Source: Desulforhabdus amnigena
GTDB taxonomy: Bacteria > Desulfobacterota > Syntrophobacteria > Syntrophobacterales > Syntrophobacteraceae
Direction of reading: 5' to 3'
Assembly: GCF_027925305.1 (NCBI RefSeq)
Contig: NZ_BSDR01000001.1
Location: 3,375,001 to 3,439,000 of the forward strand
DNA length: 64,000 bases
Below the pieces are notes generated by a model. That model worked only from the letters and a program-made list of their open reading frames with translations, made no database searches and was not told where the DNA came from. Below are positions 16,866-42,551 of this stretch, one piece after another; within the stretch, counting starts at the first letter, position 1, and the number at the start of each line of letters is the position of its first letter. A program made the position numbers and the translations under genes.

Positions 16866-19800
16866 GACGCATCATCCAACTGCCCCAGGATTTTCCCCAT
16901 CTGTTCCCTCCAGTGAGCCACGTCCTCGGCCGTCATCACATCCACGGCGCCTCCCTGGAATTCCCCGGTGACATCGGCCAGGGTGTCTTCCAAGGTCCCT
17001 TCCAGCTCCAGGTAGGCATCCTTGAGGCGGTCCAGCAGCTCTTCGTCGGGCTGCCAGATGGAGCGGGCCTGGGCCTCCAGGAGACGCCGGCCCACTTCTT
17101 CCAGCGCCCACGGGTTGACCTCCTGGAACCAGCGGCGCATGGCTTCATCCAGGACAAAGGTTTCAGCGATTTCATCAAAGATCCAGCCATCTACCTCTCC
17201 CGTGGTGGCGGCAAACCCGTACACCCGGCCGATGCGCTTGGAAAGGTCTCCCGCACCCTTGTAGCCGTGGGCCTTCATTCCTTCGATATACTTGGGATTG
17301 AGGAGCTTGGCTCTCACCACCCGGCGCATTTCGTCGGCAAAGTCCGTGATTTCCACGTTGGCCGGGTCACGCGTATCCCCGTAATAGGTCTTGGGCTTCC
17401 TGCCAGACAGAGTGTGAGCGGCGGCCGTCATGCCCCCGTAGTTGCCGAAAAAGCCGCAGCAGCTCAAAAAGTCCGTTTCATCGGAAATGTGCTTGTCGAA
17501 AGTCACTTCCACGCGCCTGAGGCTTCCCACCAGCTCGCGGTGGGCCGGAACGCCGTAGGTGGCCTCACCCGCACCGCCCCCGTAGGCATAGCCGTTCCAG
17601 AAGACGTAGATGTCCGACAGGTCCTTTTCCGTTTTCCAGGCCGACGCATACACAGCCAGGTTCACACCTGCCCGGTAGACTCCGGGCTGGGCGCAGAAGA
17701 TGCGGTAGCTCAAGCGTCGGAACTGCTCAGGGTCCCCGATGTCGACCTTTTCACCGCGGGCCAGATCGAGGAGGTGCTTGCGGACGAAATTCTCTTCGGG
17801 AGGCTCGTCGGCCATGGCCGCCGCCTGCACGACCGAATCCAGGTATTTGAGGGCATCGGGAAAACAGTCCCGGCTGATGCCCGAGACGCGAATGTGGACA
17901 TCGATGCGCGGCCGCCCCAGCTCCGCTGTGGGAATCAGCTCGAACCCGTCCACCTGCCCGTTCGGCTTCCACCTGGGGTGCGCTCCCAGGAGATGGAGGA
18001 TCTGTCCCATCTGCTCGCCGTCGGCCCGCATGATGTCCGAAGCGAGCCAGACCATGCCCACCTGTTCGGGGTGGCGTCCTTCCTCCCGCATGAAACGGTC
18101 GAGGAGCGCCTCCCCCAGCCTCACGCCCACCCGGTACGCCGCCCGGGTGGGAATGCGGGTGGGGTCCACGTTGTAGAAATTGCGGCCCGTGGGGAGGATG
18201 TCGTAGCGTCCCCGGGAAATGTAGCCCGAAGGGCCGGCAGGGATATGGCCGCCGCTCATGCCGTTGAGAAGCGAATCGATCTCCTGCGAATGGGAAATAC
18301 GCCGGTCGATCTCTGAAACCAGCCCGGCAAATCGCTTCAGACGCTCCTCCATCCCTTTGTCCGGAACGGTTTGGAAAGCCGTTTGCGCGGCGTCGGAAAC
18401 GTCCTTCCCGTCGATCAATGCGGCAATGAAGTCTTTGGCCTTGCGGTCGGCTTCGAAGAGAAGCTCGCCGTAGACCCTTCCACACCGACCGCGGTCGGCA
18501 GGCGCCCGGAGGGCCGCCTCCAGCTCTTCCCGCCAGACGTCGAAAACCAGGCGACGGGCATTGAGTTCATTTCCCGAATCGAACCGCAGGATGGTGTTGA
18601 TCATCTCCGCCCGCGATTCGCCTTGGGGAATACGCCCGAAGATATGCATCCCCGTGTACGTCTGGCTGTTTCGGATGCGGGAGAGGATTTCGTGGCACCG
18701 CACCACCCTGGAAGGGAAGTCGCCCTGCACGGTCTTTTCCACTTCGTCTTTCAGGTGACAGCGTTCCAGGGCGTCCCCGATGAGATGCTCCACCTGGTGA
18801 GCCCGGGCCGGGTCCTGTTTCCTGGCCCGTTCGTATTCGTCGAGCAGCTCTTCCAGCTCCGCCAGGTCGCCGTAGGTGTCCGCCGTGGTCATGACGGCCT
18901 GCATGTGATCCACCAGAACGGCATTGCTGCGCCTTTTGGCCACCACCCCCTCGGCCGGGTTGTCCGCATTGTAAATGTAAAGGTTTGGCAGAGCGCCCAG
19001 GGCGATGTCCGGCCAGCAGGAATCCGAAAGGCCGGCCCCCTTCCCGGGCATCCATTCGAGATTGCCGTGAGTCCCGACGTGGATGATGACATCGGCTCCA
19101 AAAACCTTGTCCATGTACATGTAAGTGGCGATGTACTGGTGGGGAGGCGGTACATCGGGATCGTGGAGGATCTTGCACACCTGGCCGTCACAGCGGGCCC
19201 CGGCGCAGCCTCGCTTGGGCTGCATGATGACATTGACGTTCCCGAAGTTGAGCCCCGTGATGACGAGCCTGCCGTCGAAAACCATGCTGGGGGGGACTCC
19301 ATTGAGCTCCTGCCCCGGAGGCTCCCCCCATGCTTCCACGAGCTTTCGCTTCGCCTTGGGTGTGAGGGCCTCGAACCATTCCCGGTAGACATCCGAGGGC
19401 AGCAGGGCCAGGTGCCCCCCCTTGGAGATGATTTCATCTACCGTCGTCCACCGGAATTCGGCGATGGCCTTTCGAGCCAGGAAGGTCTGCATCAGCGCCT
19501 CCCCCGACGGAGGGATGCTCCCGACCCGGTAACCGGCAACCTGCATGGCTCTCATGATTTCCACGATGCTCTCCCCCGCATCCAGTCCGCCCGCCCCGCC
19601 GATATTGGCCTCGAGCCCCGCACACTCGTTCTTGTGCACCACGAAAACGACTTTGCGCTCCTGTGGGGGCTTGCGCGCCAGGCGCACCCAGCGGGCGATG
19701 CGCCCGGCCATGCGCTCCACCCGCCGGGTCAGGACTTCGCGGATTTCGAACACGGTCCCCGTTGCGGCGTCTTCTTCCTTGCGGCTGCAGCCGATGAGAA

Positions 19801-20770
19801 CGGGTTCGATGTTTCCTTCGAATTCCGGCAGGACAATGCCGAAGGTCACTTCGGAAACGAGCCCCTGGGGGTTCTCCTCCCATTGGGCGGCGGACTGAGC
19901 GTAGGAAATGACGGGCTTGAAGACGGGGACATTGAGTTTCCTGAAGAATTCTACCGATTCGCGAGCCACGGACGTGTCGGAAAAGCCCGACCCGTTGCGC
20001 CGGCCCAGAAAGGAAAACTGGAGGTTGATGAGAGCCTTGATGCGCGGCCGGCCGTCATCCTGGAGGAAGAAATGCTCGGCGGCGGCCAGAGGCCCTTCGG
20101 CTCCGAGACCCGCATCGGGCGTGTAGTGGCTGAAAACCGGCAGAACGTTGAGGCCTTGATGCTCCAGGGCTTGAATGATGGCCGATTCCAGGGCTCCGTC
20201 GGTGTTGACGAAGCTGTTGCGGGAAAACAGGATGCCCACGGTCTCTTCGTACCGTGGGGGATGGGCCTTCAGGTAGCTTTCTGTGGAATCGTAGATGGCC
20301 GCATCCGGGGGGCTCATGATTCCCTGCCAGGGCAAGGGCACGGGAGGCTCCACGGGAATGTGACGTTTCACATGGGAGGCGATGAAATGGAGGAGGCGCC
20401 GGTAGTTTTCTTCGCCGCCCTGAGCCAGATAAGCATAGGCCTGCGCACAGTCGTCCATATCCAGGGTGGCGCACCGTCCCCAGTGAGTGGGATCGAAGGA
20501 CGTCGTGACAATCACCCGCCCCCCCTGGATGTCGCCTATGCCGGCAGCCACTTCGTCCCAGAAGCCGTCGTTGGTCCAAAAGAGCAGCACCGCGTCGCAA
20601 GTGCGTGCAGCTGCCCAGAACCGGTCCAGCACGGAAGAGTTTTCCTGGATTTCCTTGATGGAAAAGAGCGTGACGGACACGTGAGGGCTCTGCCGCGCCG
20701 CAGCGAGAAACGCCGGCACATAGGAGCTCCACATGATGGATACGATGCGAACGGGCCTACTGGATTCCAT
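16862..20770 (-). CDS. cobN: CobN/BchH-like large metallochelatase subunit
   Basis: 1302 residues, the expected size of CobN/ChlH. Family blocks include VIIHVGTHGNLEWMPGKGAGLSD, YIYNADNPAEGVVAKRRSNAVLVDH and RGRYDILPTGRNFYNVDP, and the C-terminal GRVYGFAATTGEVDGW. In the aerobic pathway CobN with CobS/CobT inserts cobalt into hydrogenobyrinate diamide. Here the partners are ChlI/ChlD-like, and the gene lies in an operon with a corrinoid-type importer and TonB receptor. A role in cobalt chelation or handling of imported corrinoid is likely but not proven; a nickel or magnesium substrate cannot be excluded. ATG at 20770 with GGAGGTGAG, one base after the ATPase gene. Confidence 0.88.
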   Translation of the reverse strand: MESSRPVRIVSIMWSSYVPAFLAAARQSPHVSVTLFSIKEIQENSSVLDRFWAAARTCDAVLLFWTNDGFWDEVAAGIGDIQGGRVIVTTSFDPTHWGRCATLDMDDCAQAYAYLAQGGEENYRRLLHFIASHVKRHIPVEPPVPLPWQGIMSPPDAAIYDSTESYLKAHPPRYEETVGILFSRNSFVNTDGALESAIIQALEHQGLNVLPVFSHYTPDAGLGAEGPLAAAEHFFLQDDGRPRIKALINLQFSFLGRRNGSGFSDTSVARESVEFFRKLNVPVFKPVISYAQSAAQWEENPQGLVSEVTFGIVLPEFEGNIEPVLIGCSRKEEDAATGTVFEIREVLTRRVERMAGRIARWVRLARKPPQERKVVFVVHKNECAGLEANIGGAGGLDAGESIVEIMRAMQVAGYRVGSIPPSGEALMQTFLARKAIAEFRWTTVDEIISKGGHLALLPSDVYREWFEALTPKAKRKLVEAWGEPPGQELNGVPPSMVFDGRLVITGLNFGNVNVIMQPKRGCAGARCDGQVCKILHDPDVPPPHQYIATYMYMDKVFGADVIIHVGTHGNLEWMPGKGAGLSDSCWPDIALGALPNLYIYNADNPAEGVVAKRRSNAVLVDHMQAVMTTADTYGDLAELEELLDEYERARKQDPARAHQVEHLIGDALERCHLKDEVEKTVQGDFPSRVVRCHEILSRIRNSQTYTGMHIFGRIPQGESRAEMINTILRFDSGNELNARRLVFDVWREELEAALRAPADRGRCGRVYGELLFEADRKAKDFIAALIDGKDVSDAAQTAFQTVPDKGMEERLKRFAGLVSEIDRRISHSQEIDSLLNGMSGGHIPAGPSGYISRGRYDILPTGRNFYNVDPTRIPTRAAYRVGVRLGEALLDRFMREEGRHPEQVGMVWLASDIMRADGEQMGQILHLLGAHPRWKPNGQVDGFELIPTAELGRPRIDVHIRVSGISRDCFPDALKYLDSVVQAAAMADEPPEENFVRKHLLDLARGEKVDIGDPEQFRRLSYRIFCAQPGVYRAGVNLAVYASAWKTEKDLSDIYVFWNGYAYGGGAGEATYGVPAHRELVGSLRRVEVTFDKHISDETDFLSCCGFFGNYGGMTAAAHTLSGRKPKTYYGDTRDPANVEITDFADEMRRVVRAKLLNPKYIEGMKAHGYKGAGDLSKRIGRVYGFAATTGEVDGWIFDEIAETFVLDEAMRRWFQEVNPWALEEVGRRLLEAQARSIWQPDEELLDRLKDAYLELEGTLEDTLADVTGEFQGGAVDVMTAEDVAHWREQMGKILGQLDDAS

Positions 20771-20771
20771 C

Positions 20772-21614
20772 TCACCTCCTCATGGGTTGTGTTGTACCAA
20801 TCAGCCTTTGAGCATGCCCGGCCCAAGGGCCGTCGTGTTCCCGGCCATTGGAGACGCACCTCAAAACTTGAATCAGCGGATAGCCGTTCTCCCAATTGAC
20901 GGCGGCTTCCACTCCGTAGACGGTGCGAATGTTGCCAGCATGGAGCACCTCCCGGGGAGAGCCCGAGCAAAAGACCTTTCCTTCCCGCAGCATCACCATC
21001 TTGTGGGAAAAGCGTGCCGCCAGGTTGAGATCGTGCATGGCCATGACGGCGCCCATGCCCCTGGATTCCACCAGTACCGCCATCAACTCCAGCACTTCCA
21101 TCTGATGTCGGAGGTCCAGGCTGCTGGTGGGCTCATCCAGGAGCATGTAAGAAGGTTCCTGGGCCAGCGCCCTGGCCAGCAGGACCTTTTGGGCCTGGCC
21201 TCCACTCAGGCGGTCCATCTCTCTCATGGCCAGTTCATCGAGATTCATTTCATGAAGGATCTCGGCTACTTTTATCATATCCTTCTGCGATGGGCGCCAA
21301 ACGGCATGGGGTCTTCGCCCCGTGAGGACCGTATCGAAAACCGTCATGGAAAAGCGGGAGGGGATGCTCTGGGGCACATACCCCAGACGAGCGGCCAGTT
21401 CTTTGCGGGACATGCTGGAAGCTTGCCGGTCTTCGATACGGATGGCGCCGCCCGTGGGCTTGAGGATTCCCGCCATGCATTTGAGCAGCGTGGTTTTTCC
21501 AGCCCCGTTGGGCCCCACGATGCTCAGGATCTGCTTTCGCTCCACCGTCACCCCGATCGAATCAAGGATGAGGCTGGAGCCGTAGGCAAAGGAAAGGTCG
21601 TGAATGTACAACAT
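20772..21614 (-). CDS. BtuD/FecE-type ABC transporter ATPase
   Basis: 280 residues from the ATG at 21614, whose A is shared with the permease stop (TGATG). The open frame continues upstream, but that part only shadows the permease. Walker A GPNGAGKTT, Q-loop YVPQS, signature LSGGQAQKVLLARAL, Walker B YMLLDEPTSSLD and H-loop AVMAMHDLNLA are all present. It is the iron-chelate/cobalamin subfamily. It energises import through the neighbouring FecCD-type permease. Confidence 0.92.
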   Translation of the reverse strand: MLYIHDLSFAYGSSLILDSIGVTVERKQILSIVGPNGAGKTTLLKCMAGILKPTGGAIRIEDRQASSMSRKELAARLGYVPQSIPSRFSMTVFDTVLTGRRPHAVWRPSQKDMIKVAEILHEMNLDELAMREMDRLSGGQAQKVLLARALAQEPSYMLLDEPTSSLDLRHQMEVLELMAVLVESRGMGAVMAMHDLNLAARFSHKMVMLREGKVFCSGSPREVLHAGNIRTVYGVEAAVNWENGYPLIQVLRCVSNGREHDGPWAGHAQRLIGTTQPMRR

Positions 21615-22648
21615 CACCAGTATTCCCTGGAGCGTTTCAGCAGGAGGTAAAAGAAAAAAGGCACGCCGATGAAGGACGTCACGATCCCGATGGGAATGAC
21701 CTGGGGAGCCCACAGGGTCCTGCCGAGCGTATCGGCGGCCACCACGATCAACGCTCCCACCAGCCCTGAGGAAGGCAGGAGGGTGTGGTGGTCGCTCCCG
21801 ATAATCATGCGGGTGATGTGAGGTGCCACAAGCCCTACAAATCCGATGACCCCCGTGAAGCAGATGCACCCTGCCGTGACGAGAGAAGCGGACACCACCG
21901 CCGCCATGCGCAGGTGCTCCACATTTACCCCCAGGGCCAGAGCCGATTCATCGCCTGCCGTCAGCAGGTTCAAGTCCCAGGCCCGGCGCCAGAGGAAGGG
22001 AAAAGGGAGCAGGATCATGAGCGCCGCCAGGCCGATTTCGGGCCAGCCTACTTTGGAGAGGCTTCCGAAAAACCAGAACACCACTTCCTGGACCTGTTCC
22101 ATGGTGCCCATATACTGAAAGAGAGAAGTCACGGAGGAGAAGAGGAACATTTGAGCGATGCCCGTGAGGATCATGGTTTCGGAAGAGGCCCGCCTCATAC
22201 GGGCAACACCCAGAATGATAAAAGCGGAGACGAGAGAGAAGATGAAAGCCCCCAAAGCCATGCGATAAGTCTGGAAGCCCCCTCCGAAAAACAAAATGAC
22301 GGTTACGGCTCCCAGACCCGCTCCCGAACCTATGCCCAGGGTAAAGGGCGAAGCGAGCGGGTTTTGCAGGATGGCCTGAAAAACCGCGCCCGCCGTTCCC
22401 AAACCGAAGCCTACCAGCACCGCCATGACAATGCGGGGCAACCGGAGTATCCACATGATACTGTGCGCGCGACCGTTATCCACAAAGAGGGCGGAGAGAG
22501 CTTCAAGGGGGCTCATTCCCGAAGCACCCACCGAAAGGCCAATGGCTGTCAACCCCAACAGGAGCAGGATCACGACAAAGAGAAAGAGTATCCTGGCGCC
22601 AGCGTAGGCTCTGTAATTGCGGCATAAGGCTTCGGCATGAGAGCTCAT
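21614..22648 (-). CDS. BtuC/FecD-type ABC transporter permease
   Basis: 344 residues of the FecCD family with about ten membrane segments. LPRIVMAVLVGFGLGTAGAVFQAILQNPLASPFTLGIGSGAGLGA is the standard N-terminal signature (split here across PR-I-x and G-GAxFQ...NPLA). GFVGLVAPHITRMIIGSDHH is the coupling-helix region. It starts in an ATGA overlap with the binding-protein gene and ends in a TGATG overlap with the ATPase gene, so the three importer subunits are translated as a unit. Confidence 0.92.
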   Translation of the reverse strand: MSSHAEALCRNYRAYAGARILFLFVVILLLLGLTAIGLSVGASGMSPLEALSALFVDNGRAHSIMWILRLPRIVMAVLVGFGLGTAGAVFQAILQNPLASPFTLGIGSGAGLGAVTVILFFGGGFQTYRMALGAFIFSLVSAFIILGVARMRRASSETMILTGIAQMFLFSSVTSLFQYMGTMEQVQEVVFWFFGSLSKVGWPEIGLAALMILLPFPFLWRRAWDLNLLTAGDESALALGVNVEHLRMAAVVSASLVTAGCICFTGVIGFVGLVAPHITRMIIGSDHHTLLPSSGLVGALIVVAADTLGRTLWAPQVIPIGIVTSFIGVPFFFYLLLKRSREYW

Positions 22649-23763
22649 GGCGCTTTCCCCGCGATGTCGTCTGAAACAAAGACTCCTTTGTAGGGAATTC
22701 CCTGAAATATTTCCAGATACTCCCTATGGAGGTCCCCGGGGTGCAGATCGGGAAAGCGGCCCGGGTGAATCCAGCGCGCCATGTAGACAATTCCGACGAT
22801 GGCTCGCGGTCCGGTCCAGATTGCGCTGTCCATGACATAGACTCTCCCGGATTCCACGGCGGCAACATGATTCCAGGCCGGACGGTTCATGATGGCATTT
22901 CGCCTGCGATTGAACGGCCCGGCATTGTTGACGGCATAACCGTTGCCGAAGGAGGCCGCCTTGACGATGACGTCCGGATTCCGGGAGATCACCCATTCCG
23001 ACGTGACCACAGCGTAGGGAATGGAGAGGTCCCCCGCCACGCAGCGGCCGCCGGAGACCAGGCACATCTCATGCCCCCCGGAGCCCGGCCCGGCTGCGTG
23101 ATAGTCGCTGTAGCTCTCCACGTAAACGGAAGGAGGGTCCGCCACTGCGTCGAGCTTGGAGCGGACGGCGTCCAGGTGCTGCCGGTGCCACCGGCAAAAC
23201 CTGTCGGCTTCCGTCTCCTTTCCCAGGAGAAGCCCGAGCGCCCGGACTTCTTTTTCCAGCACTTCGATCCGGTAGAGATCCAGGCGGAGTACCCTGAAGC
23301 CCAGGGCTTCGCCCTTCTTTTCCAGCTCCGGGCCCGGATTGCGGCTGTAGGCGATGACAAGATCCGGCGCCAGCCTGACGATGGCTTCCAGGTCCGGATC
23401 GCGCCAGCTTCCGGCTTTTGGCTTCTGAACCAGGTCGCCCCAGAATTCGGGTTCTCGCACGATTTCCGAAAAGACTCCCACGACGAGGTCCTGAGCCTTC
23501 AAGGTACGAAGGACCTCCAGGATATCCGAGTTCAAGGCCACGATCCTGTGGACGGGCTGAGGGATCTCCACCGTTCTGCCCAAGGAATCCGTTATGGAAA
23601 GAGAGGCTGCCAGGGTTGGAGCCGGAGCGAAAAACAAAAAGCCCCCCAGCACCCAGCAGCAGAGCAAAATCTGCAGGCGCTTCCCCGCCCACTCAATAGC
23701 GCAGTGTGACTTCTGCGAAGATGGTGCGGCCTTCGGTCTTGTAGTATTCATAGTATTCTTCAT
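22645..23763 (-). CDS. BtuF/FepB-type periplasmic substrate-binding protein
   Basis: Up to 372 residues. The N-terminal hydrophobic run LQILLCCWVLGGFLFFAPAP is the signal sequence. The mature part begins SITDSLGRTVEIPQPVHRIVAL, the classic start of class III binding proteins for cobalamin, haem and siderophores. The frame's first ATG lies 71 bases inside the end of the receptor gene and gives an unusually long N-region, with no strong Shine-Dalgarno, so the true start is uncertain. Residues such as VYVESYSDYHAAGPGSGGHEM are less usual and might bind ligand. Confidence 0.85.
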   Translation of the reverse strand: MKNTMNTTRPKAAPSSQKSHCAIEWAGKRLQILLCCWVLGGFLFFAPAPTLAASLSITDSLGRTVEIPQPVHRIVALNSDILEVLRTLKAQDLVVGVFSEIVREPEFWGDLVQKPKAGSWRDPDLEAIVRLAPDLVIAYSRNPGPELEKKGEALGFRVLRLDLYRIEVLEKEVRALGLLLGKETEADRFCRWHRQHLDAVRSKLDAVADPPSVYVESYSDYHAAGPGSGGHEMCLVSGGRCVAGDLSIPYAVVTSEWVISRNPDVIVKAASFGNGYAVNNAGPFNRRRNAIMNRPAWNHVAAVESGRVYVMDSAIWTGPRAIVGIVYMARWIHPGRFPDLHPGDLHREYLEIFQGIPYKGVFVSDDIAGKAP

Positions 23764-25890
23764 CCAGGAGGTTCTCCAGGGATACGGAAAATTCCAGGTT
23801 TTTCCGGGGGGAAACGGTCACCTTGGCATCCATGAAATAGGCGGGCTCGTAGGTGCCGTACACTCCGTCTTCCACATCGGAATTGTCGGAATTATTGTAG
23901 ATTTTTCCGTAGTAGCGCCCGATGAGGCTTCCCTTGACCCACTTGTATTGGGCATCCAGCCCCAGGTTGAAGGCCGTCTTGGGAATGCCGGGAACACGCT
24001 TGTCTTCGCTTTCGGGGTCCGTGGGATTATCCGTGATGACGGCATCCGTGTAAGTGAAGTTTCCCCACAGAGACAGCCAATCCGTGATCTTCTGCGAGGC
24101 TTCCAGTTCCACACCGTACGTCCTTGCCTCTCCTGCGTTTTCCCTGAATTTGATGAACCCTTCGGTTCGGTAATAGATAAGGTCTTCGATGTCGTTGCGG
24201 TATCCCGTGAGGGAAATCCTGGTGCGCTTATCGAAGAAGTACTGGTCGATACCCAGTTCATAGGTCCAAACGGTTTCGGGGCTCAGGTCGGGATTGCTCT
24301 CGTAGATCGTGGAATAGCTGGTCCATGTGCGATAGAGTTCATAGAGCGTAGGAGGCCGGAAGGCATGGCCCACGGACCCTCGCACCGTGGTGTCGGGAAG
24401 GGCCTTCCACACTGCAGCCACTTTGGGGCTGAATTCTGATTCATTGTTGCTGGAATACTGGATTTCCGATCCAGGTACGCCGGATGCGCCATCATAAACC
24501 TCCCAGGAATCGAAGCGTGCCCCCAGGTAAACGGTCAGAGGGTCCAGGATCTGCCATTCGTCCTGGGCGAAGACTGCCCAACTGGTGGATTTTCCCCCTG
24601 AATAGAATGTGCTCGGCCCGGCCCCTGAAAAGCTTCGGTAAAAGGGGATATTGTAATCGTTGGTGTCCGAATCATCCCTTCGGAAAGAGGTCCCGACGGT
24701 GAGCAGATGAGAGGAGCCCAGGGGGACGTCCCCGCGCATCTCCGTGAACCATGAGCCGTTCTCGGTGATCTTGAGAGACCCGGGGGAATCATCGTAAAAA
24801 GCGTTATTGCTTCCCGTTTCCAAAGTATATCGATCGTCCACCCGAACCGTCCCGGCTTGAGCGTGAAGCCTTACGGGACCGAATACTTCTTCGAAAGAAA
24901 GGGTGTAGATGTCCGTATCGTTTTTGCCTATCCCCGTATAGCTGATGAAGTCGTTGGGCCTGAATCGTGCCGCCTGCCCCTCTCCCGCGATGGCATAAGT
25001 GGTATCGCCGCCGAAAGTCCCCATGTAGGTTGGGGATATCCGTAGTCATAGTCGTCGCTCCCCAGGATTGTAGTGAGAGTGAGTTTCCCTGTATCGGAGA
25101 GAGCGAGGTTGGCCTTGGCATCGAAGCTCTGTCGCCATGCCCCGTTTTCACCCTTATCACCCACCACCCAGCGAGTGGCTTCACCCAGCATGTCGTTCAT
25201 GGCATAACCTCCTGAAACATTGCCCGTTCCCGAGGTTATGCTCTGCACCACGGGAGTGGAGGCATAACCGCCCGTACTTTCTTCTTCGTACCCCACCTTC
25301 ACACTGAGGCGGTTCCAGAGGAGGTCGCCGGCACTGAACCGGTAACGGTAGGTGTCGTCGGTGCCGTAGCCGCCGGAAGCCTCCAGTTCCAGCTTCTGAG
25401 GAGTCTTGGTGATGATGTTGATGACGCCTCCCATGGCGTTGCCGCCATAGAGGGCTGATGCGGGCCCCCGAATGACTTCGATGCGCTCGATGTTCTTGAC
25501 CGGGAGCGTTCCCCACTCGATACCGCCGGTGTAGGCATCGTTGGCAGGCTGCCCGTCGATGAGGACCAGGGTGTACTGATCGCCTTTGAAGCCTCGAAGA
25601 TTTACGGATGCCGTCGAATCCATCAGCCCCTTGCTGCGCTTCACAAAAACGCCTGAAAGGATTCTCAGGGCGTCATCCGCCGTTTTGATGTTTTGCTTTT
25701 TCAGATCTTCCCTGTCGATTACCGTCACGCTGCCGGGAGCGTCTTCTACCTTCTTTTCCGTTTTGGTGGCCGTGACCACGATCTCATCCATGGCAGTCAA
25801 ATCCGGGGCGGCTTCATCGGCCAGGCACGGAGCACACATTCCCATGATCATGAATACGACTGCCGCAACCATCCACTTCTCTTCCCCCAT
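23693..25890 (-). pseudogene. BtuB-like TonB-dependent receptor, one frameshift
   Basis: Two frames join to make one full receptor of about 730 residues. The first (from the ATG at 25890, Shine-Dalgarno AGGAGGAG) has a signal peptide, a TonB box (MDEIVVTATK), a plug (VNLRGFKGDQYTLVLIDG, GGNAMGGVINII) and part of the barrel up to DYDYGYPQPT. The second continues from about 25024 with MGTFGGDTTYAIAGEG to the aromatic C-terminus FAEVTLRY. One missing base near 25027-25035 explains the break. It may be a true mutation or a sequence error; the rest of both halves is well preserved. It heads the chelatase/importer operon, which argues for recent or artefactual damage. Confidence 0.8.
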
Positions 25891-25938
25891 TTCTCCTCCT
25901 CTTGTCCTTCCGCAGGATATCCCTCGATGTGCAGGAAA

Positions 25939-25994
25939 CAAAAAAGCCACGAGACGACACCCCCTTTCCAGGAGCAATCAGCCTTCGTGGCTTT
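25939..25994 (-). terminator. Terminator/attenuator hairpin in the second TonB receptor leader
   Basis: On the minus strand AAAGCCACGA (25994-25985) pairs with TCGTGGCTTT (25952-25943) and runs into a T-rich tract (TTTTTTGTTT). It lies about 50 bases before the receptor start, within its leader. The loop contains GATTGCTCC, and the first TonB receptor leader has a terminator with ATTGCTC at the same loop position. The shared design suggests attenuation by a common signal, perhaps a metal or corrinoid. Confidence 0.6.
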
Positions 25995-27167: not shown

Positions 27168-28007
27168 ATGATCATCAGTATTGCCAGCGGGAAAGGGGGG
27201 ACTGGTAAAACGACTCTAGCCGCCAATCTTGCAGTTGCTCTGGCCGATAGGAACGTTCAACTGCTGGACTGTGATGTGGAAGAGCCGAACGACCATCTCT
27301 TCCTGAAGCCGACTATTACGAGGCAGACGGAAATTTATGCTGAAGTTCCCGAAATCGATGCGAAACTTTGTACCTATTGCGGAAAATGCCAGGAAATTTG
27401 CCAGTTCAATGCCATTGCCATTCTGCCTGAAGTGGCCTTGACGTTTCAGGAACTCTGCCACAGTTGCGGGGGATGTTTTATGGTTTGCCCCGAAAATGCG
27501 GTGCTTTCCAGAAAGCGTCTCCTGGGGACGGTGGAAGAGGGATCGCGTGGTCCCCTGCGTTTCATTCAAGGGCGTCTTCGAGTGGGAGAAGCCATGGCGC
27601 CTCCCCTCATTCACAGGGTCCGGGAAGCCGCCACTGGCAACGGTATCACCATCGTGGATGCGCCTCCGGGAACTTCGTGCCCCGTCATAGCCTCTTTGAG
27701 GGGGAGTGATTTTGTGATCCTTGTAACGGAGCCGACCCCTTTCGGGCTGAATGACCTGAAACTGGCTGTGGGTGCTGTCCGCATCCTCGGAATTCCCATG
27801 GGGATTGTGGTCAACCGTTCCGACCTTGGGGATGATCGCGTTCGCGAGTTCGCCCGGGAGGAAAAGATCCCCATCCTCATGGAAATCCCCTTCGATCGTC
27901 GCGTGGCCGAATCCTATGCACGGGGAGATATCCTGGTGGAAGCCCTTCCTGACTGGCGCCAAAAGATGCTGGACCTCTTTGACGCCGTCTGTGATGCACG
28001 TAAATGA
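27168..28007 (+). CDS. MinD-like P-loop ATPase with inserted 2x[4Fe-4S] ferredoxin domain
   Basis: 279 residues. The deviant Walker A SGKGGTGKTT lies at residues 7-16. Two CxxCxxCxxxC motifs follow at 68-78 (CTYCGKCQEIC) and 97-107 (CHSCGGCFMVC), an inserted bacterial ferredoxin. The switch region is VDAPPGTSCPVIASL. This architecture matches the Orp3/Orp4-type ATPases of the Desulfovibrio ORP complex. It probably couples nucleotide hydrolysis to iron-sulfur or metal-cluster transfer. ATG at 27168 with AAGGAG; its stop overlaps the next, homologous gene. Confidence 0.9.
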   Translation: MIISIASGKGGTGKTTLAANLAVALADRNVQLLDCDVEEPNDHLFLKPTITRQTEIYAEVPEIDAKLCTYCGKCQEICQFNAIAILPEVALTFQELCHSCGGCFMVCPENAVLSRKRLLGTVEEGSRGPLRFIQGRLRVGEAMAPPLIHRVREAATGNGITIVDAPPGTSCPVIASLRGSDFVILVTEPTPFGLNDLKLAVGAVRILGIPMGIVVNRSDLGDDRVREFAREEKIPILMEIPFDRRVAESYARGDILVEALPDWRQKMLDLFDAVCDARK

Positions 28008-28927
28008 TTGACTCCATGGCCTCAACAATAGAGAAGAAAAAAATGCATGAACTCGTAATCATCAGTGGAAAAGGCGGAACGGGAAAAACCAGCATTGTGG
28101 GAGCCTTTGCGGCTCTGGCCGAAAAAAAGGTTCTGTGCGATGCGGATGTGGATGCTGCAGACCTGCATCTCCTGCTCACTCCCACCATCATAGAGCGGCA
28201 TGACTTCAGGGCCGGCCACAAGGCCTCCATCGATCCGGATCGTTGCATCCAGTGCGGCGACTGCCGGGAAAGGTGCCGCTTCGACGCGATTTCCCCTTCT
28301 TTTGTCGTGGATCAGCTCCAGTGCGAAGGGTGCGGGGTCTGTTATTATTTTTGCCCTGCGGGGGCTGTTGATTTTCCCGAGAGCCTCTGCGGAGAGTGGT
28401 ATTTTTCCAAGACCCGCTTCGGCCCCATGGTGCATGCCCGACTGGGGATCGCGGAAGAAAATTCCGGCAAACTGGTATCGCTCGTTCGAAAGGAAGCGCG
28501 GCAGATCGCGGAAAAGGATCATCTGGATTGGATCCTCACGGATGGGCCTCCAGGCATCGGATGTCCTGTCATCGCCTCCATCGGCGGAGCTTCAGCGGTG
28601 CTCATCGTCTCCGAACCCACTGTTTCCGGCTTGCATGACCTCAACCGGGTGGCAGAATTGGCCAGACATTTCAAGGTACCTGTCCTGGTTTGCGTGAACA
28701 AGGCTGATCTCCATTGGGAAGGAGCGCATGAGATTGCCGAGCACTGTCGTGCCAGGGGCTATGAATTTATGGGGTATCTGCCTTTTGATTCCGATTTTAC
28801 GCGAGCCCAAGTTGAAGGTAAGACGATTATAGAATATAATGATGGGCCTGCTAAGGACGCAGTGATGGAGCTCTGGCAAAAGGTCTCACAGGCGGTGGAG
28901 AAATCCGGTGTGGGGCCTGAAGGATAA
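28004..28927 (+). CDS. MinD-like P-loop ATPase with ferredoxin insert (paralogue)
   Basis: 307 residues if it begins at the ATG overlapping the previous stop (ATGA); an internal ATG at 28043, just before the conserved HELVIISGKGGTGKTS, would shorten it by 13. Two cluster motifs are present: CIQCGDCRERC and CEGCGVCYYFC. The switch motif is TDGPPGIGCPVIASIGGA. Only part of the sequence matches its neighbour, so the two may act as a heterodimer, as proposed for paired MinD/Orp ATPases. Confidence 0.9.
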   Translation: MIDSMASTIEKKKMHELVIISGKGGTGKTSIVGAFAALAEKKVLCDADVDAADLHLLLTPTIIERHDFRAGHKASIDPDRCIQCGDCRERCRFDAISPSFVVDQLQCEGCGVCYYFCPAGAVDFPESLCGEWYFSKTRFGPMVHARLGIAEENSGKLVSLVRKEARQIAEKDHLDWILTDGPPGIGCPVIASIGGASAVLIVSEPTVSGLHDLNRVAELARHFKVPVLVCVNKADLHWEGAHEIAEHCRARGYEFMGYLPFDSDFTRAQVEGKTIIEYNDGPAKDAVMELWQKVSQAVEKSGVGPEG

Positions 28928-36244: not shown

Positions 36245-37492
36245 ATGGGTTCGTGTCAAAGTCAACAATGCAGCCATGGGGCGGGGCCTCAGGAAGAAAA
36301 ATCGAAGGAAGATATTCAGCTCGATGAACAGCTCAAACGCATCAAGCACAAATTGCTGGTCATGAGCGGCAAGGGTGGAGTTGGGAAGAGCAGCGTGGCC
36401 AGCTACCTGGCGGTGGGGCTTTCCAAGCTCGGTTACCGGGTGGGATTGCTGGACGTGGATCTTCATGGCCCGAGTATTCCGGGGATGCTTGGTTTGCGTG
36501 GCATGTTTCGCGTGGATCCCGACGAAAACTTGCTGATTCCACATAAGTACAACGACTTTCTCCAGGTGGTTTCCATCCAGTGTCTGCTGGAAGATTCCGA
36601 TGCGGCGGTCATCTGGCGGGGGCCGGTCAAGCATGGCGTAATCAAGCAGTTTATTGCCGAAGCGAAGTGGGGAGATCTCGATTTCCTCCTCATTGATTCA
36701 CCTCCGGGAACGGGGGATGAACCCTTGAGTGTGGCGCAGATGATGCCCGATGCCAAAGCGGTCATCGTCACCACCCCCCAGGAGGTTTCCCTCGCCGATG
36801 TGCGAAAGTCCATCAACTTCTGCCGCAAAGTGAATATGCCGATTTTGGGGCTGGTAGAGAATATGAATGGGCTCATCTGCCCGCACTGCAACAAGGAAGT
36901 GCCTCTCTTCGGGAAGGGCGGAGGAGGCAAAATGGCGGAAAAGATGGGTGTCCATCTACTGGGAAGCCTTCCCTTCGATCCCCGGGTTGTGGAGAGTGCC
37001 GATATCGGTAAATCGCTTCTCGAACAGACCGATGACAGTCCTTTTCTAAAGGCGTTGGGAAAGTTGATTGCGGAAGTGGTTTCCCGCAGTGGTATCCAGC
37101 AGGGCGGGACCGTTCAAAAAGAAGCGGGGGCGGCGGATACTCTTTCGGACCCGCAGAGCTTCAAAGTGGCGATACCTATGGCGGGAGGAGCGCTCACCAA
37201 TCATTTCGGTCATTGTGAGCAGTTCTTGATTGTGGATGTCCAGAAGGGTGTTATTGGAAACAAAGAGACGATCACGCCTCCCCCTCATGAACCCGGTCTT
37301 CTGCCCCGCTGGCTGGGAGAGTTGAACGTGAATCTGATCATTGCAGGGGGAATGGGTTCCCGCGCCATCGAGCTTTTCAATCAGCAGAATATCAAGGTCG
37401 TCACAGGGGCGCCCTGTTTGCCCCCGGAGGAGCTCATTCAGCAATACCTGGCGAATACGTTGAAGACGGGTGCGAACGCGTGTGACCATTAG
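36245..37492 (+). CDS. Mrp/NBP35-family P-loop ATPase fused to a NifX-type domain
   Basis: 415 residues. Residues ~30-280 are an Mrp/ApbC-type iron-sulfur carrier: VMSGKGGVGKSS, LLDVDLHGPSIPGMLG, DSPPGTGDEPLSV and ENMNGLICPHC, the last giving the CxxC used to bridge a cluster at the dimer interface. An N-terminal CSQ/CSH-type Cys pair (CQSQQC) resembles NBP35-like heads. After a linker, ~305-415 form a NifX-type domain (FKVAIPMAGGALTNHFGHCEQFLIVD). It matches the Mrp-like member (Orp9/DVU2109 type) of ORP clusters. ATG with GAGGAG. Confidence 0.92.
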   Translation: MGSCQSQQCSHGAGPQEEKSKEDIQLDEQLKRIKHKLLVMSGKGGVGKSSVASYLAVGLSKLGYRVGLLDVDLHGPSIPGMLGLRGMFRVDPDENLLIPHKYNDFLQVVSIQCLLEDSDAAVIWRGPVKHGVIKQFIAEAKWGDLDFLLIDSPPGTGDEPLSVAQMMPDAKAVIVTTPQEVSLADVRKSINFCRKVNMPILGLVENMNGLICPHCNKEVPLFGKGGGGKMAEKMGVHLLGSLPFDPRVVESADIGKSLLEQTDDSPFLKALGKLIAEVVSRSGIQQGGTVQKEAGAADTLSDPQSFKVAIPMAGGALTNHFGHCEQFLIVDVQKGVIGNKETITPPPHEPGLLPRWLGELNVNLIIAGGMGSRAIELFNQQNIKVVTGAPCLPPEELIQQYLANTLKTGANACDH

Positions 37493-37497
37493 AAATT

Positions 37498-37635
37498 AAC
37501 CCCCATGATCGGAGTGGTCACAACGAAAAATGAGAAAAAGCAAAGATATGCAAGGCAATAGGAAAAGCGGGAAACGCTCTTGAAAAGCGATGTTATCATG
37601 AGCCATGAGCTATGAACCATGAGCCTTTTTCGTAT
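37498..37635 (-). repeat. Intergenic repeat family B, copy 2
   Basis: Begins near TGATCGGAGTGGTCA and ends with CATGAGCCATGAGCTATGAA. It fills almost the whole gap between the Mrp-NifX and ORP-like genes and ends just before the ORP-like ribosome binding site, so the repeat is part of the operon transcript. Confidence 0.8.
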
Positions 37636-37650
37636 AAAGGAGAGTATGCT

Positions 37651-38013
37651 ATGAAAGTGGCTATCAGCGCCACGGCGAAGAACCTCGATGCCCAGGTGGA
37701 CCCCCGTTTCGGCCGGGCAGCCTGCTTCCTGCTTGTAGACCCGGAGACGATGGAATACGAGCCGATTGAAAACACACAAAATATTCAAGCCGCTCAAGGT
37801 GCCGGAATCCAGGCTGCGACCCTGGTTGCACGCAAAAAAGCGGAAGCCGTGATTACCGGGCATTGTGGCCCCAAGGCTTTTGAGACTCTCAATGCGGCGG
37901 GGGTTCGAGTGGTCGTGGGAGTGAGCGGGTCGGTCCGGGAAGCCGTGGAGAACTTCAAAGCGGGGAAATATTCCTATGCCGAAACGGCCGATGTGGAAGG
38001 TCACTGGATGTAG
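37651..38013 (+). CDS. Orange-protein (ORP)-like NifX-family protein
   Basis: 120 residues, a single dinitrogenase-cofactor domain: MKVAISATAKNLDAQVDPRFGRAACFLLVD, then AVITGHCGPKAFETLNAAGVRVVVGVSGSVREAVENFKAG (in pieces). Size and motifs match Desulfovibrio ORP, which carries a mixed molybdenum-copper sulfide cluster; that function is transferred by similarity only. It follows the Mrp-NifX gene, as in known ORP operons. The ATG at 37651 has AAGGAG; the longer open frame begins within the repeat. Confidence 0.88.
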   Translation: MKVAISATAKNLDAQVDPRFGRAACFLLVDPETMEYEPIENTQNIQAAQGAGIQAATLVARKKAEAVITGHCGPKAFETLNAAGVRVVVGVSGSVREAVENFKAGKYSYAETADVEGHWM

Positions 38014-38149: not shown

Positions 38150-38306
38150 TTTGAGAAAATTAGACTAATATTTTGAATAAAATGGCACGATATTACATGG
38201 ATATGATAGGATCATCTGACAATTGAATTGATCGCATCGACCTGGCAGTTTATTGAAACTTGATTTCATTTCATCCAACCGGATAACTAGGAAGGAGAAC
38301 TGCGTC

Positions 38307-40013
38307 ATGGAAAATCGTCTCCGCGTTTTGATCATCGGTGGAGTGGCTTGTGGACCCAAAAGTGCCTCGCGTTTGAAGCGTCTGATGCCCGATGCGGATA
38401 TCACTATGATTGAGCGTGGTCGTTTGGTTTCCTACGGCGCATGTGGACTGCCCTATTACGTCGAGGGAGTCTTCCCGGAGGTCAGGATGGTGAGTGAGAC
38501 GCCGGTGGGAATTCTGTACGAGCCGGCTTTTTTTGAAAAGGTCAAGGGTTTTAAAACCCTCACTCGATTGGAGGCGATCGGGATCGACCGGCGGCGGAAG
38601 ATCGTTCGGGCTAAAAATCTGGAGACGGGCGAAGAATGCGACTTCCCTTACGACAAGCTGGTTCTCGCGACCGGCAGCAGCCCCATTCGCCCCCCCATTC
38701 CGGGAATGGACCTGCAGAATGTCTGGTACATGCGGCACCCGGACGATGCGGAAAGTATGGTGGCCGAGATTGAAAGGCAGGGACTCCGCAAGGCGGTAAT
38801 CATCGGGGCTGGCTACATAGGCGTTGAAATGGCTGAAGCCTTGCTTCGCCGCGGCCTGGAGGTCACGGTGGTGGAAGCCCAGGACCAGATTCTGCCCCAA
38901 TTCCTGGATTATGAGATGGCCACCCTTGTCGGCAAGAATTTGCGGCAGAAGGGGGTTCACCTTGTTCTGAGTGAAAAAGTTCTGTCCGTGGAAGGCAAAG
39001 AGGGCAAAGTCTCCTCTGTAAAGACCGACAAAGAGACCATCGAAGCGGACCTCGTGTTGGTGGGGGTCGGAGTGCGCCCCAACGATGAACTGGCTCGCGA
39101 GGCCGGGCTGGTCTGTGACCCCAAGGGGGGAATTGTCATCAACGGTTACTGCCAGACCAGCGATCCCGATATTTATGCGGGTGGGGACTGTGTCGTCAAT
39201 CACTGTGCAAATCCTGCAATAAAGGAATCCATGTTCCTGCCCCTGGGGTCCACTTCCAACAAGCACGGGCGGGTCATTGCGGATCACATTGCGGGAATTT
39301 CCAGTCCTTTTGTGGGCATCACCGGTACGGGGGTCTGCAGGGTGTTCGATCTCACTCTCGGGCGCACCGGGCTCACGGAAAAGCAGGCGAGGATGCTGTA
39401 CCCGGACATCGAAACAGCTATTTGGGCGGGGCCGGATATGCCCCACTACATGCCTCAGAGCAAGCCGATCGTGATCAAAATGGTCGCTTCCCGCTCCTCC
39501 CGCAAGTTGCTCGGCGTGCAGGCAGTGGGCATGGGAGATGCCTCCAAGCGTTTGGACGTGGCGGCATGCGCCATCTTTTACGGTGCAACGGTGGACCAGG
39601 TCATCAATATCGATCTGGGGTACGCTCCACCCTATGCGCCCCCCATGGACCCCCTTGCCACGGCCGCCAATGTGCTTTTGAATAAGCTCAACGGCCTGGC
39701 GCGGGGTATTTCGCCGGTGGAAGCCAAACGGCGTATGGACAGTGGGGAGGATTTGGTCATTCTGGATGTACGCACCCCTGAAGAATTGATGATGATGCGG
39801 ATGCCCCATGACAAGGTGGTTCATATTCCTCTCGGAGCCCTGCGGGGGAAACTGGATCAATTGCCGAAGGATAAAGACATCCTGGCCTTTTGCAAGGTGA
39901 GCATGAGGGGGTATGAGGCGCAGCGGATCTTGAATGCGGCGGGATTCGACCGGGTCTTTTTTATCGAGGGAGGCTTGATTGCCTGGCCTTTCGAGCTCTG
40001 GACAGCCGGCTGA
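38307..40013 (+). CDS. CoA-disulfide-reductase-type flavoprotein with C-terminal rhodanese domain
   Basis: 568 residues. Residues 1-~450 are a class III pyridine-nucleotide disulfide oxidoreductase: VLIIGGVACGPKSAS (FAD), the single redox Cys in SYGACGLPYYVEG, AVIIGAGYIGVEMAEAL (NAD(P)H) and YAGGDCV. From about 465 a rhodanese domain follows, with its active-site loop FCKVSMRG. CoADR-rhodanese fusions reduce CoA disulfide, persulfides or polysulfide in other microbes. Here it lies next to TusA- and DsrE-like genes, which fits sulfur transfer. ATG at 38307 with AAGGAG. Confidence 0.9.
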   Translation: MENRLRVLIIGGVACGPKSASRLKRLMPDADITMIERGRLVSYGACGLPYYVEGVFPEVRMVSETPVGILYEPAFFEKVKGFKTLTRLEAIGIDRRRKIVRAKNLETGEECDFPYDKLVLATGSSPIRPPIPGMDLQNVWYMRHPDDAESMVAEIERQGLRKAVIIGAGYIGVEMAEALLRRGLEVTVVEAQDQILPQFLDYEMATLVGKNLRQKGVHLVLSEKVLSVEGKEGKVSSVKTDKETIEADLVLVGVGVRPNDELAREAGLVCDPKGGIVINGYCQTSDPDIYAGGDCVVNHCANPAIKESMFLPLGSTSNKHGRVIADHIAGISSPFVGITGTGVCRVFDLTLGRTGLTEKQARMLYPDIETAIWAGPDMPHYMPQSKPIVIKMVASRSSRKLLGVQAVGMGDASKRLDVAACAIFYGATVDQVINIDLGYAPPYAPPMDPLATAANVLLNKLNGLARGISPVEAKRRMDSGEDLVILDVRTPEELMMMRMPHDKVVHIPLGALRGKLDQLPKDKDILAFCKVSMRGYEAQRILNAAGFDRVFFIEGGLIAWPFELWTAG

Positions 40014-40181: not shown

Positions 40182-40263
40182 TGAAATGGCAGGCGGGGAA
40201 TCCTGCCTTTAGGGGCGATCCCGGCCCCTGTACCTGGCTTGCTGCAAAGCGTCGCTTCCCGCT

Positions 40264-40620
40264 TTAAAAACTCAGTGTCTGGTACTCGTCCATCAGGTCC
40301 ACAAGAAATGGAGCTCCTTCGATGCGTACCCCCGGAATCATTTCGTCGGGGGATAAATACCTGTGGTCCACTCAGGCCTTGCAGGCGATCATCTCGCCTC
40401 CGTTCGCCATCATGAAGTCGATAAGTGGCTTCATCTCTTCGCCCGTTGACGCTCGTGCACCTTCCGCCATGCCTAATTGGGCCCAATGAATGGCGTCGTC
40501 GATCAGGAAGACTTTTACATCGTGCTTTTTCTCGCAGGCAACTTTCGCGAATTGAAAGGCGCGCGTGGCGCGGCCCGCTTTCTCGAAACCATGGGAAATG
40601 ATAAAGAGCATCTTACCCAT
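40264..40620 (-). CDS. DsrE-like protein with in-frame UGA, probable selenoprotein
   Basis: 118 residues if the UGA at 40374-40372 is read as selenocysteine (residue 83), or 82 if it stops. The upstream part (MLFIISHGFEKAGRATRAFQFAK) is a DsrE/DsrF fold start. The sequence after the UGA continues as family: VDHRYLSPDEMIPGVRIEG, then a hydrophobic PFLVDLMDEYQTLSF, ending at TAA. In relatives this place carries Cys in an ACGxCxxxRG-like block; here it reads ACKA-UGA-VDHR. A GC-rich hairpin follows the UGA. It is the second gene after the TusA-like one. A simple nonsense mutation is the alternative, but the intact reading after UGA argues against decay. Confidence 0.75.
40326..40374 (-). promoter_or_regulatory. 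Candidate bacterial SECIS element
   Basis: Starting at the UGA (40374) and reading the minus strand, 19 bases separate it from a stem CCCCCG/CGGGGG (40352-40347 with 40334-40329) with a 12-base apical region. Position and size suit a bacterial selenocysteine insertion element, which lies directly 3' of the UGA in the coding region. The loop lacks a clear G at its first two positions, so the fit is imperfect. Confidence 0.5.
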
Positions 40621-40691
40621 TTCCGGTACCTCCTTTAGGACCTGGTCATTAAGAGTTGTGTTGTGCCAAAGACATTACACTGAGCCGTTGT

Positions 40692-40958
40692 TCACATCCC
40701 CGGGCTTGCCGCGGCATGGGGGCGTTTGGACTTTCCCTTGAGAATCCACAGGCAGGTGTGATCCTCGCCCTGTAGCTGGGCCAGCACGGTTTCTCCCGAA
40801 CGATCGAGAATGGTCAGAAGATCCTCGATGGTTTGTGGGTCCCGCAAATGGACTTCCAGGATAGCCTCCGGTTCCATGTAAGCCAGTTCCGACTTGCACA
40901 TCAGCAGGCAATAAGGGGCCAACACGCCGCAAAGATCGAGTTTTTTATCTGCCTGCAT
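40692..40958 (-). CDS. TusA-like sulfur-carrier protein with displaced cysteine
   Basis: 88 residues with the TusA/SirA layout: LDLCGVLAPYCLLMCKSEL, then a GxxLEV-like ILEVHLRDPQTIEDL. The family's catalytic Cys in the DxxGxxCPxP signature is Ala here (CGVLAPYC); instead Cys stands at the second Pro position and others lie at C10 and C21. So sulfur transfer could use a neighbouring Cys or be lost. ATG at 40958 with GGGGAGG. It is first in an operon with the DsrE-like gene, behind a sigma-54 promoter. Confidence 0.75.
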   Translation of the reverse strand: MQADKKLDLCGVLAPYCLLMCKSELAYMEPEAILEVHLRDPQTIEDLLTILDRSGETVLAQLQGEDHTCLWILKGKSKRPHAAASPGM

Positions 40959-41009
40959 CGCTGCCTCCCCGACAAATCCACTGGATATGAACTATACCTG
41001 GAGAAAAAA

Positions 41010-41024
41010 GCAAACTGCATGCCA
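41010..41024 (-). promoter_or_regulatory. Sigma-54 (-24/-12) promoter for the TusA/DsrE operon
   Basis: On the minus strand TGGCATGCAGTTTGC matches TGGCAY-N5-TTGC with ten bases between GG and GC. It lies 52 bases before the TusA-like start and in the divergent gap next to a gene for a sigma-54 activator. Confidence 0.8.
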
Positions 41025-41171
41025 TCGGAAGAAGGTTTTTTTATTTTATAATATATAGTAATTTCAATATATTGATTAATGAAAACTGCAGATGTGTTGT
41101 TGGCATGGCAGAGTTGTGTTATTGAAGTGTTTAATCAATGTTTAAACATGCAACAGCCTGGAGGGTGTTCA

Positions 41172-42551
41172 GTGGAAGAACAGGAGATGAACCGGTCTTT
41201 GAAAGAGATCATCAATACCATGAACGACGGTGTGATGTTGATCTCCCCCGACGGCGTCATTTTGATGGCCAATCGCGCCCTGGAAGAAATCACGGGCTAT
41301 GGACGCGAAGAGCTCATAGGGAGTCCCTGTTCGCTCCTTCATTGCGATGTGTGTGAAGGGGTTCGTTCCGAGGGAAAAGAGCATTGGTGTGAACTGTTCG
41401 ATCTGGGCTACTCTCACAGAAAACCTTGTTTTCTCATGCGAAAGAATGGTTCCTACGTTCATGTTCTCAAAAACGCTTCACTGCTCAAAAACGGTGACGG
41501 CAGGGTCCTGGGGGCTGTCGAGACGGTGACCGACATTTCGGAAATCGACGCACGGGACCGGAAGATCCAGCAGCTTTCCAGTCTCCTGCAGGAACAAATC
41601 GGTTTTGAAGGCATGGTGGGAAGATCGCCCGCGATGCAGAAGGTTTTCGATATTGTCCAAAAAGTGGCCCAAAGCGATGCCCCGGTGATCATCTACGGTG
41701 AAACCGGCACGGGAAAGGAGCTGGTCGCCCACGCCATCCACAAGCTGGGAAAGCGGCGGGACGCCCCCTATATCCAGCTCAACTGTGCCGCACTCAACGA
41801 GGCGCTTCTGGAAAGCGAGCTTTTCGGCCATGTGAAAGGGGCTTTTACCGGGGCTTTCAGCCACCGGGAGGGAAGGTTCGAAGCCGCCAACGGCGGCGAT
41901 TTTTTCCTGGATGAAATCGGAGACGTTCCCCTGGCCATTCAAGTGAAACTTCTCAGGGTGCTCGAAACCAAGCGGTTCGAGCGCGTGGGGGATCATCGGT
42001 CCATGGAGGTGGACGTGCGGATCATCACGGCCACCAACAAGGACCTCGAAAGCCTTGTTTCCCAGGGAAAGTTCCGTGAGGATTTCTTCTTCCGCATCAA
42101 CGTCATCCCCATCCATCTTCCAGCTCTGAGAGAGCGGATGGAAGACCTGCCCCTGCTCATAGAACACTTCCTGCGGCAGATCCGGACCCGCAGCGGCAAG
42201 GAGATATCCGGGCTGAGCGCTGAAGCCATGGAACTTTTCATGAACCACCACTGGCCGGGGAACGTAAGGGAACTCCGAAGCGTTTTGGAATATGCCTTTG
42301 TGACGGCGGAAAATGGGTTGATCCACCCGGAGCACCTGCCGGCCCGTTTGACGCAATTCAGGAGGAAGAAAAGCGAAGAGCAGGGCCCTGTACCTATGCT
42401 TCCCGATGAAAAGACCGCTCTCATCGATGCCCTTGTCACGTGCCGCGGCAATCAATCCCAGGCAGCACGCATGCTCGGCGTGAATCGTGTTACCGTCTGG
42501 CACCGCATCAAGAAGTACGGTATCGACATCAAAGAGTTGATGACACTCTGA
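41172..42551 (+). CDS. PAS-domain sigma-54-dependent transcriptional activator
   Basis: 459 residues from a GTG at 41172 that has a strong Shine-Dalgarno (GGAGGG, 6 bases away); the frame opens at an ATG at 41079 without one. The PAS domain contains a cysteine group ([14 protein letters not shown], then HWC and KPC). The AAA+ domain has GETGTGKE, the standard GAFTGA loop and FFLDEIGD. A Fis-type helix-turn-helix ends it ([18 protein letters not shown]). It diverges from the TusA/DsrE operon and probably controls that operon's -24/-12 promoter. The signal may be redox, sulfur or metal, given the cysteines. Confidence 0.9.

Follow-up and report, generated by a model that had tools for sequence, protein, structure and literature searches.

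A predicted DsrE-like selenoprotein with selenocysteine at the second position of its redox motif

INTRODUCTION

DsrE of the DsrEFH complex and TusD of the TusBCD complex are single-cysteine sulfur carriers, which reside in heterohexamers and participate in a sulfur relay with TusA. A fusion of TusA and DsrE, named YedF, has been tied to selenium metabolism (PMC5322559). DsrE-like proteins are also listed among the bacterial selenoprotein families, as stated in PMC1088965, PMC1794560 and PMC13188914. Where their motif is given (PMC1088965, PMC2398784, PMC9312934 and PMC13188914), they are catalogued as UxxC. Such proteins come from a Sargasso Sea set (PMC1088965) and from Desulfovibrio vulgaris (PMC1794560); WP_014524487.1 serves as an example in PMC13188914 and PMC9312934, and DsrE 1/2 appear in PMC2398784. 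Selenoprotein catalogues, a 2026 review among them, list DsrE-like proteins only as UxxC.

Here, we analysed a stretch of 64,000 nucleotides of Desulforhabdus amnigena DNA (the window), in which one gene very probably (about 0.93, from sequence comparison) encodes a selenoprotein with a CxxU motif. The original prediction had placed this gene in a known selenoprotein family; DsrE-like proteins are indeed listed as such in the papers cited above, but the listed type is UxxC, whereas the window protein is of the CxxU type. CxxU is absent from the DsrE passages of the literature surveyed, a survey for which subscription journals were mostly outside the scope, and an earlier report is possible. 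Within those passages, selenocysteine (Sec) at the second motif position is an active-site arrangement that was not found.

RESULTS AND DISCUSSION

The dsrE frame and its conservation

The dsrE frame runs on the minus strand from an ATG at 40620 to a TAA stop at 40266–40264 and comprises 118 codons. Codon 83 is a UGA (40374–40372), and 35 further codons separate it from the TAA. The prediction that the frame passes this UGA with its DsrE pattern kept agrees with the Pfam search: the 118-residue product is a member of PF02635 (DsrE/DsrF-like), and the match covers residues 3–116 of 118 (E 1.8e-18, 67.2 bits against a Pfam cut-off of 22.7) and therefore crosses the UGA. The TusD equivalog TIGR03012 (NCBIfam) scored 16.4 bits against a cut-off of 89.25. 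The features of the gene are as follows.

40264–40620, minus strand: predicted DsrE-family selenoprotein gene, 118 amino acids, motif C80-K-A-U83 (PF02635, conservation of UGA and tail, predicted DsrE fold)
40372–40374, minus strand: UGA codon, predicted to be read as selenocysteine, Sec83 (TGA in 8 clade loci; TGC/TGT in CKAC relatives)
40381–40383, minus strand: Cys80 codon, invariant partner of the predicted Sec83; the UxxC type has Sec at this place (alignment column, UIPC relatives)
40618–40635, minus strand: Shine-Dalgarno AAAGGAGG and dsrE start codon (from the sequence; strong Shine-Dalgarno)

Seven loci of other genomes (L009–L014 and L127), whose products are 73–87% identical to the window protein (86% for L009, from Desulfoferrobacter suflitae), have a TGA at the identical codon 83 followed by the same C-terminal tail, and Shine-Dalgarno sites of the AGGAGGTGA type are equally placed in all of them. 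The CKAC relatives (about 45–62% identical) have TGC or TGT at this codon, and Cys is found at position 83 in 47 more distant relatives of the tree. Homologues thus carry either Cys or Sec at residue 83, in line with a check proposed at the outset, and the Cys80 column is invariant in the alignment of relatives. The retention of UGA and tail in seven loci, with Cys in the distant relatives, excludes chance. Two further homologues are encoded in the genome that contains the window: a paralogue with Cys only (C1:42417, CKACADKRL) and, belonging to the UxxC type, a homologue that reads CTPC (C1:3319257). In plasmid records, a single remote match was found.

An AlphaFold model of the 118-residue protein has the DsrE fold (pLDDT 89.7), and in this model the segment after the UGA provides the final strand, helix and strand. 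The closest structures in the PDB were 3mc3 (Z 16.8), YchN (1jx7, 15.4), TusBCD (2d1p, 13.6) and DsrEFH (2hy5, 13.5).

A candidate SECIS hairpin downstream of the UGA

Comparison of the UGA-bearing genes points to one RNA element behind the UGA.

40329–40352, minus strand: predicted SECIS hairpin CCCCCG-AC-GAA-AUGA-UUC-CGGGGG (9 pairs in 8/8 sequences; synonymous constraint at codons 84–98)

The hairpin begins 19 nt after the UGA, with its apical loop 31–34 nt after it, and its stem occupies alignment columns 26–49. All nine pairs are kept in the eight Sec sequences (72/72 cells), three of them varying through G-U, and pairing falls to 33–79% when the partner strand is slid by 1–3 columns. At codons 84–98, comparisons between identical residues in seven Sec genes gave identical codons in 224 of 276 cases (81%), against 701 of 1457 (48%) in the rest of the gene. 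This synonymous constraint, which leaves synonymous sites almost unchanged, extends over about 46 bases behind the UGA. When 15-codon windows are compared along the entire gene, the most conserved begin at codons 82–84, and none of 20,000 random 15-codon sets was as conserved as codons 84–98. Over these codons, 19 Cys relatives show slightly less codon conservation than over the remainder (0.42 versus 0.50). A constraint confined to the UGA-bearing genes matches what is predicted for an in-frame SECIS, and on these comparative grounds we take the hairpin at 40329–40352 to be a bacterial SECIS.

In the eight sequences, the hairpin has no compensatory base-pair changes, being too conserved to show covariation. 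Folded singly, the sequence was no better than its shuffles (z 0.16 for a 48-nt piece and -1.0 for 53 nt). The case for the SECIS therefore rests on conservation; the GC stem announced 19 bases past the UGA was correctly positioned, but its lone fold provides no evidence. RNAalifold proposed two additional helices, a distal one around columns 21–24 and 50–53 and another that overlaps the UGA; as some sequences do not maintain their pairing, both were discarded. A search of 40200–41100 against Rfam returned only a chance match to PVT1_7 (E 0.92).

Selenocysteine machinery of the genome

The genome holding the window (one contig, 4.54 Mb, 99.4% complete) contains a tRNA-Sec gene with anticodon UCA (tca), SelB (383 bits, cut-off 242), SelA (620 bits, cut-off 268) and SelD (404 bits, cut-off 125), so that selA, selB, selC and selD, for which a search had been suggested, are all present. 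SelD itself has an in-frame UGA and reads AGUAAK. A tRNA-Sec above the cut-off was detected in each of the seven Sec genomes tested (L009, L010, L012, L013, L014, L072 and L117). Taken with the conservation of the UGA and the tail and with the synonymous constraint, these genes bear out the original prediction of a probable selenoprotein.

CxxU and UxxC in the DsrE tree

Across 395 genomes searched within the phylum, many UxxC genes were recovered (PIYVUIPCAKARQ and similar), in which Sec aligns with Cys80 and Cys with Sec83 of the window protein. The published arrangement, Sec first and Cys second, differs from the C80-K-A-U83 found here, and because Sec falls at the second motif position we count the window protein as a new variety of DsrE-like selenoprotein. 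CxxU recurs in a second lineage (L072 and L117, from genomes G236 and G425), which reads CKAUADKRL and lies within an otherwise Cys-only group. In a tree of 88 proteins, built with masked U sites, the starred branches force no fewer than two state changes for CxxU; being short (120 columns) and unrooted, the tree leaves gain versus loss undecided. Both CxxU lineages stand apart from the UxxC groups, which make up 17 rows. The L072/L117 genes have a different, SECIS-like hairpin, CGUCUCAUCGGUCCCGAUGAG, and two different hairpins favour separate gains of CxxU in the two lineages, as judged from sequence.

Another in-frame TGA was observed near residue 50 of a distant DsrE protein (L100 1042–1359, minus strand, the same as L133, G211:C2:48341–48697), which reads THGULQHVF where relatives, with Cys at the TGA site, have THGCLEHVF. 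It is possibly a pseudogene, an error or a third Sec site; as a third site it was set aside, being present in one genome only and having a start region unlike that of its relatives.

Gene neighbourhood

Three neighbours of dsrE in the window are relevant to its function.

40692–40958, minus strand: TusA-like gene, 71-bp gap upstream of dsrE, probable operon partner, APYC in place of CPxP (PF01206, E 3.2e-11)
41079–42551, plus strand: divergent PAS/sigma-54 activator, probable regulator (PF00158, 8.8e-71)
38253–40013, plus strand: CoA-disulfide-reductase-like flavoprotein with C-terminal rhodanese, convergent (PF07992, 2.8e-66; PF00581, 7.2e-10)

The flavoprotein matched TIGR03385 at 8e-121, yet under the cut-off of that model. 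The Sec gene of L014 is accompanied by a TusA-like FPYC protein (L014:6183–6422), a PAS/sigma-54 activator (L014:4469–5839) and a second small DsrE-like protein, and that of L009 by the small DsrE-like protein together with a universal stress protein. Visibly sulfur-related surroundings are limited to the genes of the window, L009 and L014. Those of L010–L013 adjoin cytochromes or other genes, so the operon partners are not conserved and the neighbourhood is no more than suggestive.

In the TusA-like proteins that adjoin the Sec gene in the window and in L014, APYC and FPYC, respectively, replace CPxP; the usual catalytic Cys is thereby missing, and there is instead a Cys three positions further along. 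Sigma-54-like promoter sequences lie between the genes of the sigma-54 activator and the TusA-like protein in the window (TGGCATGCAGTTTGCT, 41009–41024, minus strand) and in L014 (TGGCATCTACCTTGCT, 6101, plus strand); they are weak candidates, since 32 matches in the window score 9 or more.

Elsewhere in the window, the minus strand of 13780–25977 contains a pair of AAA+/chelatase-like ORFs, an ORF of 1302 residues similar by eye to a CobN-like protein, and an iron-transport-type permease with a binding protein. Outer-membrane-receptor-like ORFs in overlapping frames at 23693–25977 (minus strand) are possibly a frameshifted receptor gene. MinD/Mrp-type ATPases are encoded on the plus strand at 27168–28927 and 36245–38013, the latter near the Sec gene and carrying dinitrogenase iron-molybdenum cofactor domains (PF10609, PF02579).

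Proposed mechanism

From this analysis, the gene product is probably a small sulfur-transfer protein of the DsrE/YchN type that is made as a selenoprotein. A sulfurtransferase function is suggested by the family and by the TusA and rhodanese–CoA-disulfide reductase neighbours, and the role is probably in persulfide relay or reduction. According to the comparative evidence, UGA 83 is decoded by tRNA-Sec and SelB with the SECIS hairpin as guide. Cys80, which we take to be the sulfur-carrying residue of the family, comparable to the catalytic Cys78 of TusD/DsrE, would accept sulfane sulfur as a persulfide, for example from the upstream TusA-like protein or the neighbouring rhodanese–CoA-disulfide reductase. 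This role of Cys80 is assumed from what is known of TusD/DsrE and from the aligned CKTC of YchN. Sec83 would then be a fast resolving residue that attacks the Cys80 persulfide and either frees sulfide or hands the sulfur on. A Cys80–Sec83 selenenylsulfide would form and be re-reduced by a cellular thiol system. In its specifics, namely a persulfidated Cys80 resolved by Sec83 through a selenenylsulfide, we regard this scheme as tentative.

Alternative explanations

The UGA could be a true stop, leaving an 82-residue protein and a downstream conservation that is merely the relic of a pseudogene or of a recent nonsense mutation, and UGA does ordinarily terminate many genes of the window. However, eight divergent genomes share the UGA, the tail and a frame free of TAA and TAG after it, and at codons 100–108, beyond the SECIS, residue identity (78%) exceeds codon identity (52%), so protein conservation extends past the RNA element. 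Decay after the UGA, for which the original prediction had asked, is absent; the tail is under constraint at the protein level and additionally at the RNA level. The truncated form would moreover lack the last strand–helix–strand of the modelled fold, and we consider a true stop very improbable. The frame is open whatever residue the UGA encodes, as would also be the case if UGA were reassigned to Trp or Cys, genome-wide or locally, or were subject to programmed read-through with an ordinary amino acid. The many window genes that end in TGA indicate that UGA is not globally reassigned, the genome has a complete Sec system, homologues have Cys, the usual counterpart of Sec, and never Trp at site 83, and the SECIS-like constraint is limited to UGA-bearing genes. 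We give reassignment or read-through slightly less credit still than a true stop.

A real selenoprotein could also use Sec83 in selenium or metal(loid) handling, for example as a selenium carrier or as part of a Cys–Sec metal ligand. The link of YedF to selenium (PMC5322559) speaks for such a role, the TusA-like and DsrE genes of the window being adjacent, as does CxxU in the FrhD, GrdA and HdrA selenoproteins, which is reported in PMC2398784. However, the genes for SelA, SelB, SelD and tRNA-Sec are distant from dsrE, all outside the window, and Cys-only relatives with the same motif, including the paralogue in the same genome, imply that the reaction needs no selenium. This role is therefore unlikely, though far less so than either of the other readings of the UGA, and we prefer a selenoprotein acting in sulfur transfer.

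Significance and comparison with known systems

It seems likely that DsrE proteins took up Sec at either motif position, as UxxC in some lineages and, independently at least twice, as CxxU. If so, the two residues would be interchangeable or sequential in the chemistry, and CxxU would mark a separate type of persulfide-resolving enzyme that current selenoprotein catalogues lack. The occurrence of CxxU in two lineages with two SECIS hairpins would constitute a natural swap experiment, showing which residue is responsible for the rate-limiting step when DsrE-type proteins handle sulfur. With standard gene callers, the gene would stop after codon 82 and be annotated as a truncated DsrE protein that lacks its redox pair, and the same mis-annotation would affect relatives in sulfate-reducing and related bacteria.

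Among known systems, DsrE of DsrEFH (2hy5) and TusD of TusBCD (2d1p) share the fold (Foldseek E 2e-6 and 4.1e-4), whereas the motif of the window protein is a CxxU pair, and its gene showed no adjacent partner genes for DsrF/H or TusB/C. YedF resembles the locus in combining TusA-like and DsrE parts, its DsrE domain having the redox motif CGxC; however, the window has two separate genes, with the predicted Sec in the DsrE protein, and its TusA-like protein scored 19.7 bits against the YedF model (cut-off 79). YchN of E. coli (1jx7) agrees in fold over 113 residues (Z 15.4) and has an aligned CKTC followed by D and R, but carries Cys at both motif positions and no selenium. The UxxC DsrE-like selenoproteins have PF02635 in common with the window protein, and likewise carry a residue encoded by UGA within this redox motif of four residues; they too occur in bacteria of the sulfate-reducer type that possess a Sec system. 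They differ in having Sec first and Cys second, whereas the window protein has Cys first and, as predicted, Sec second (CKAU), and the mechanism proposed here would be the mirror image of one in which Sec holds the first position.
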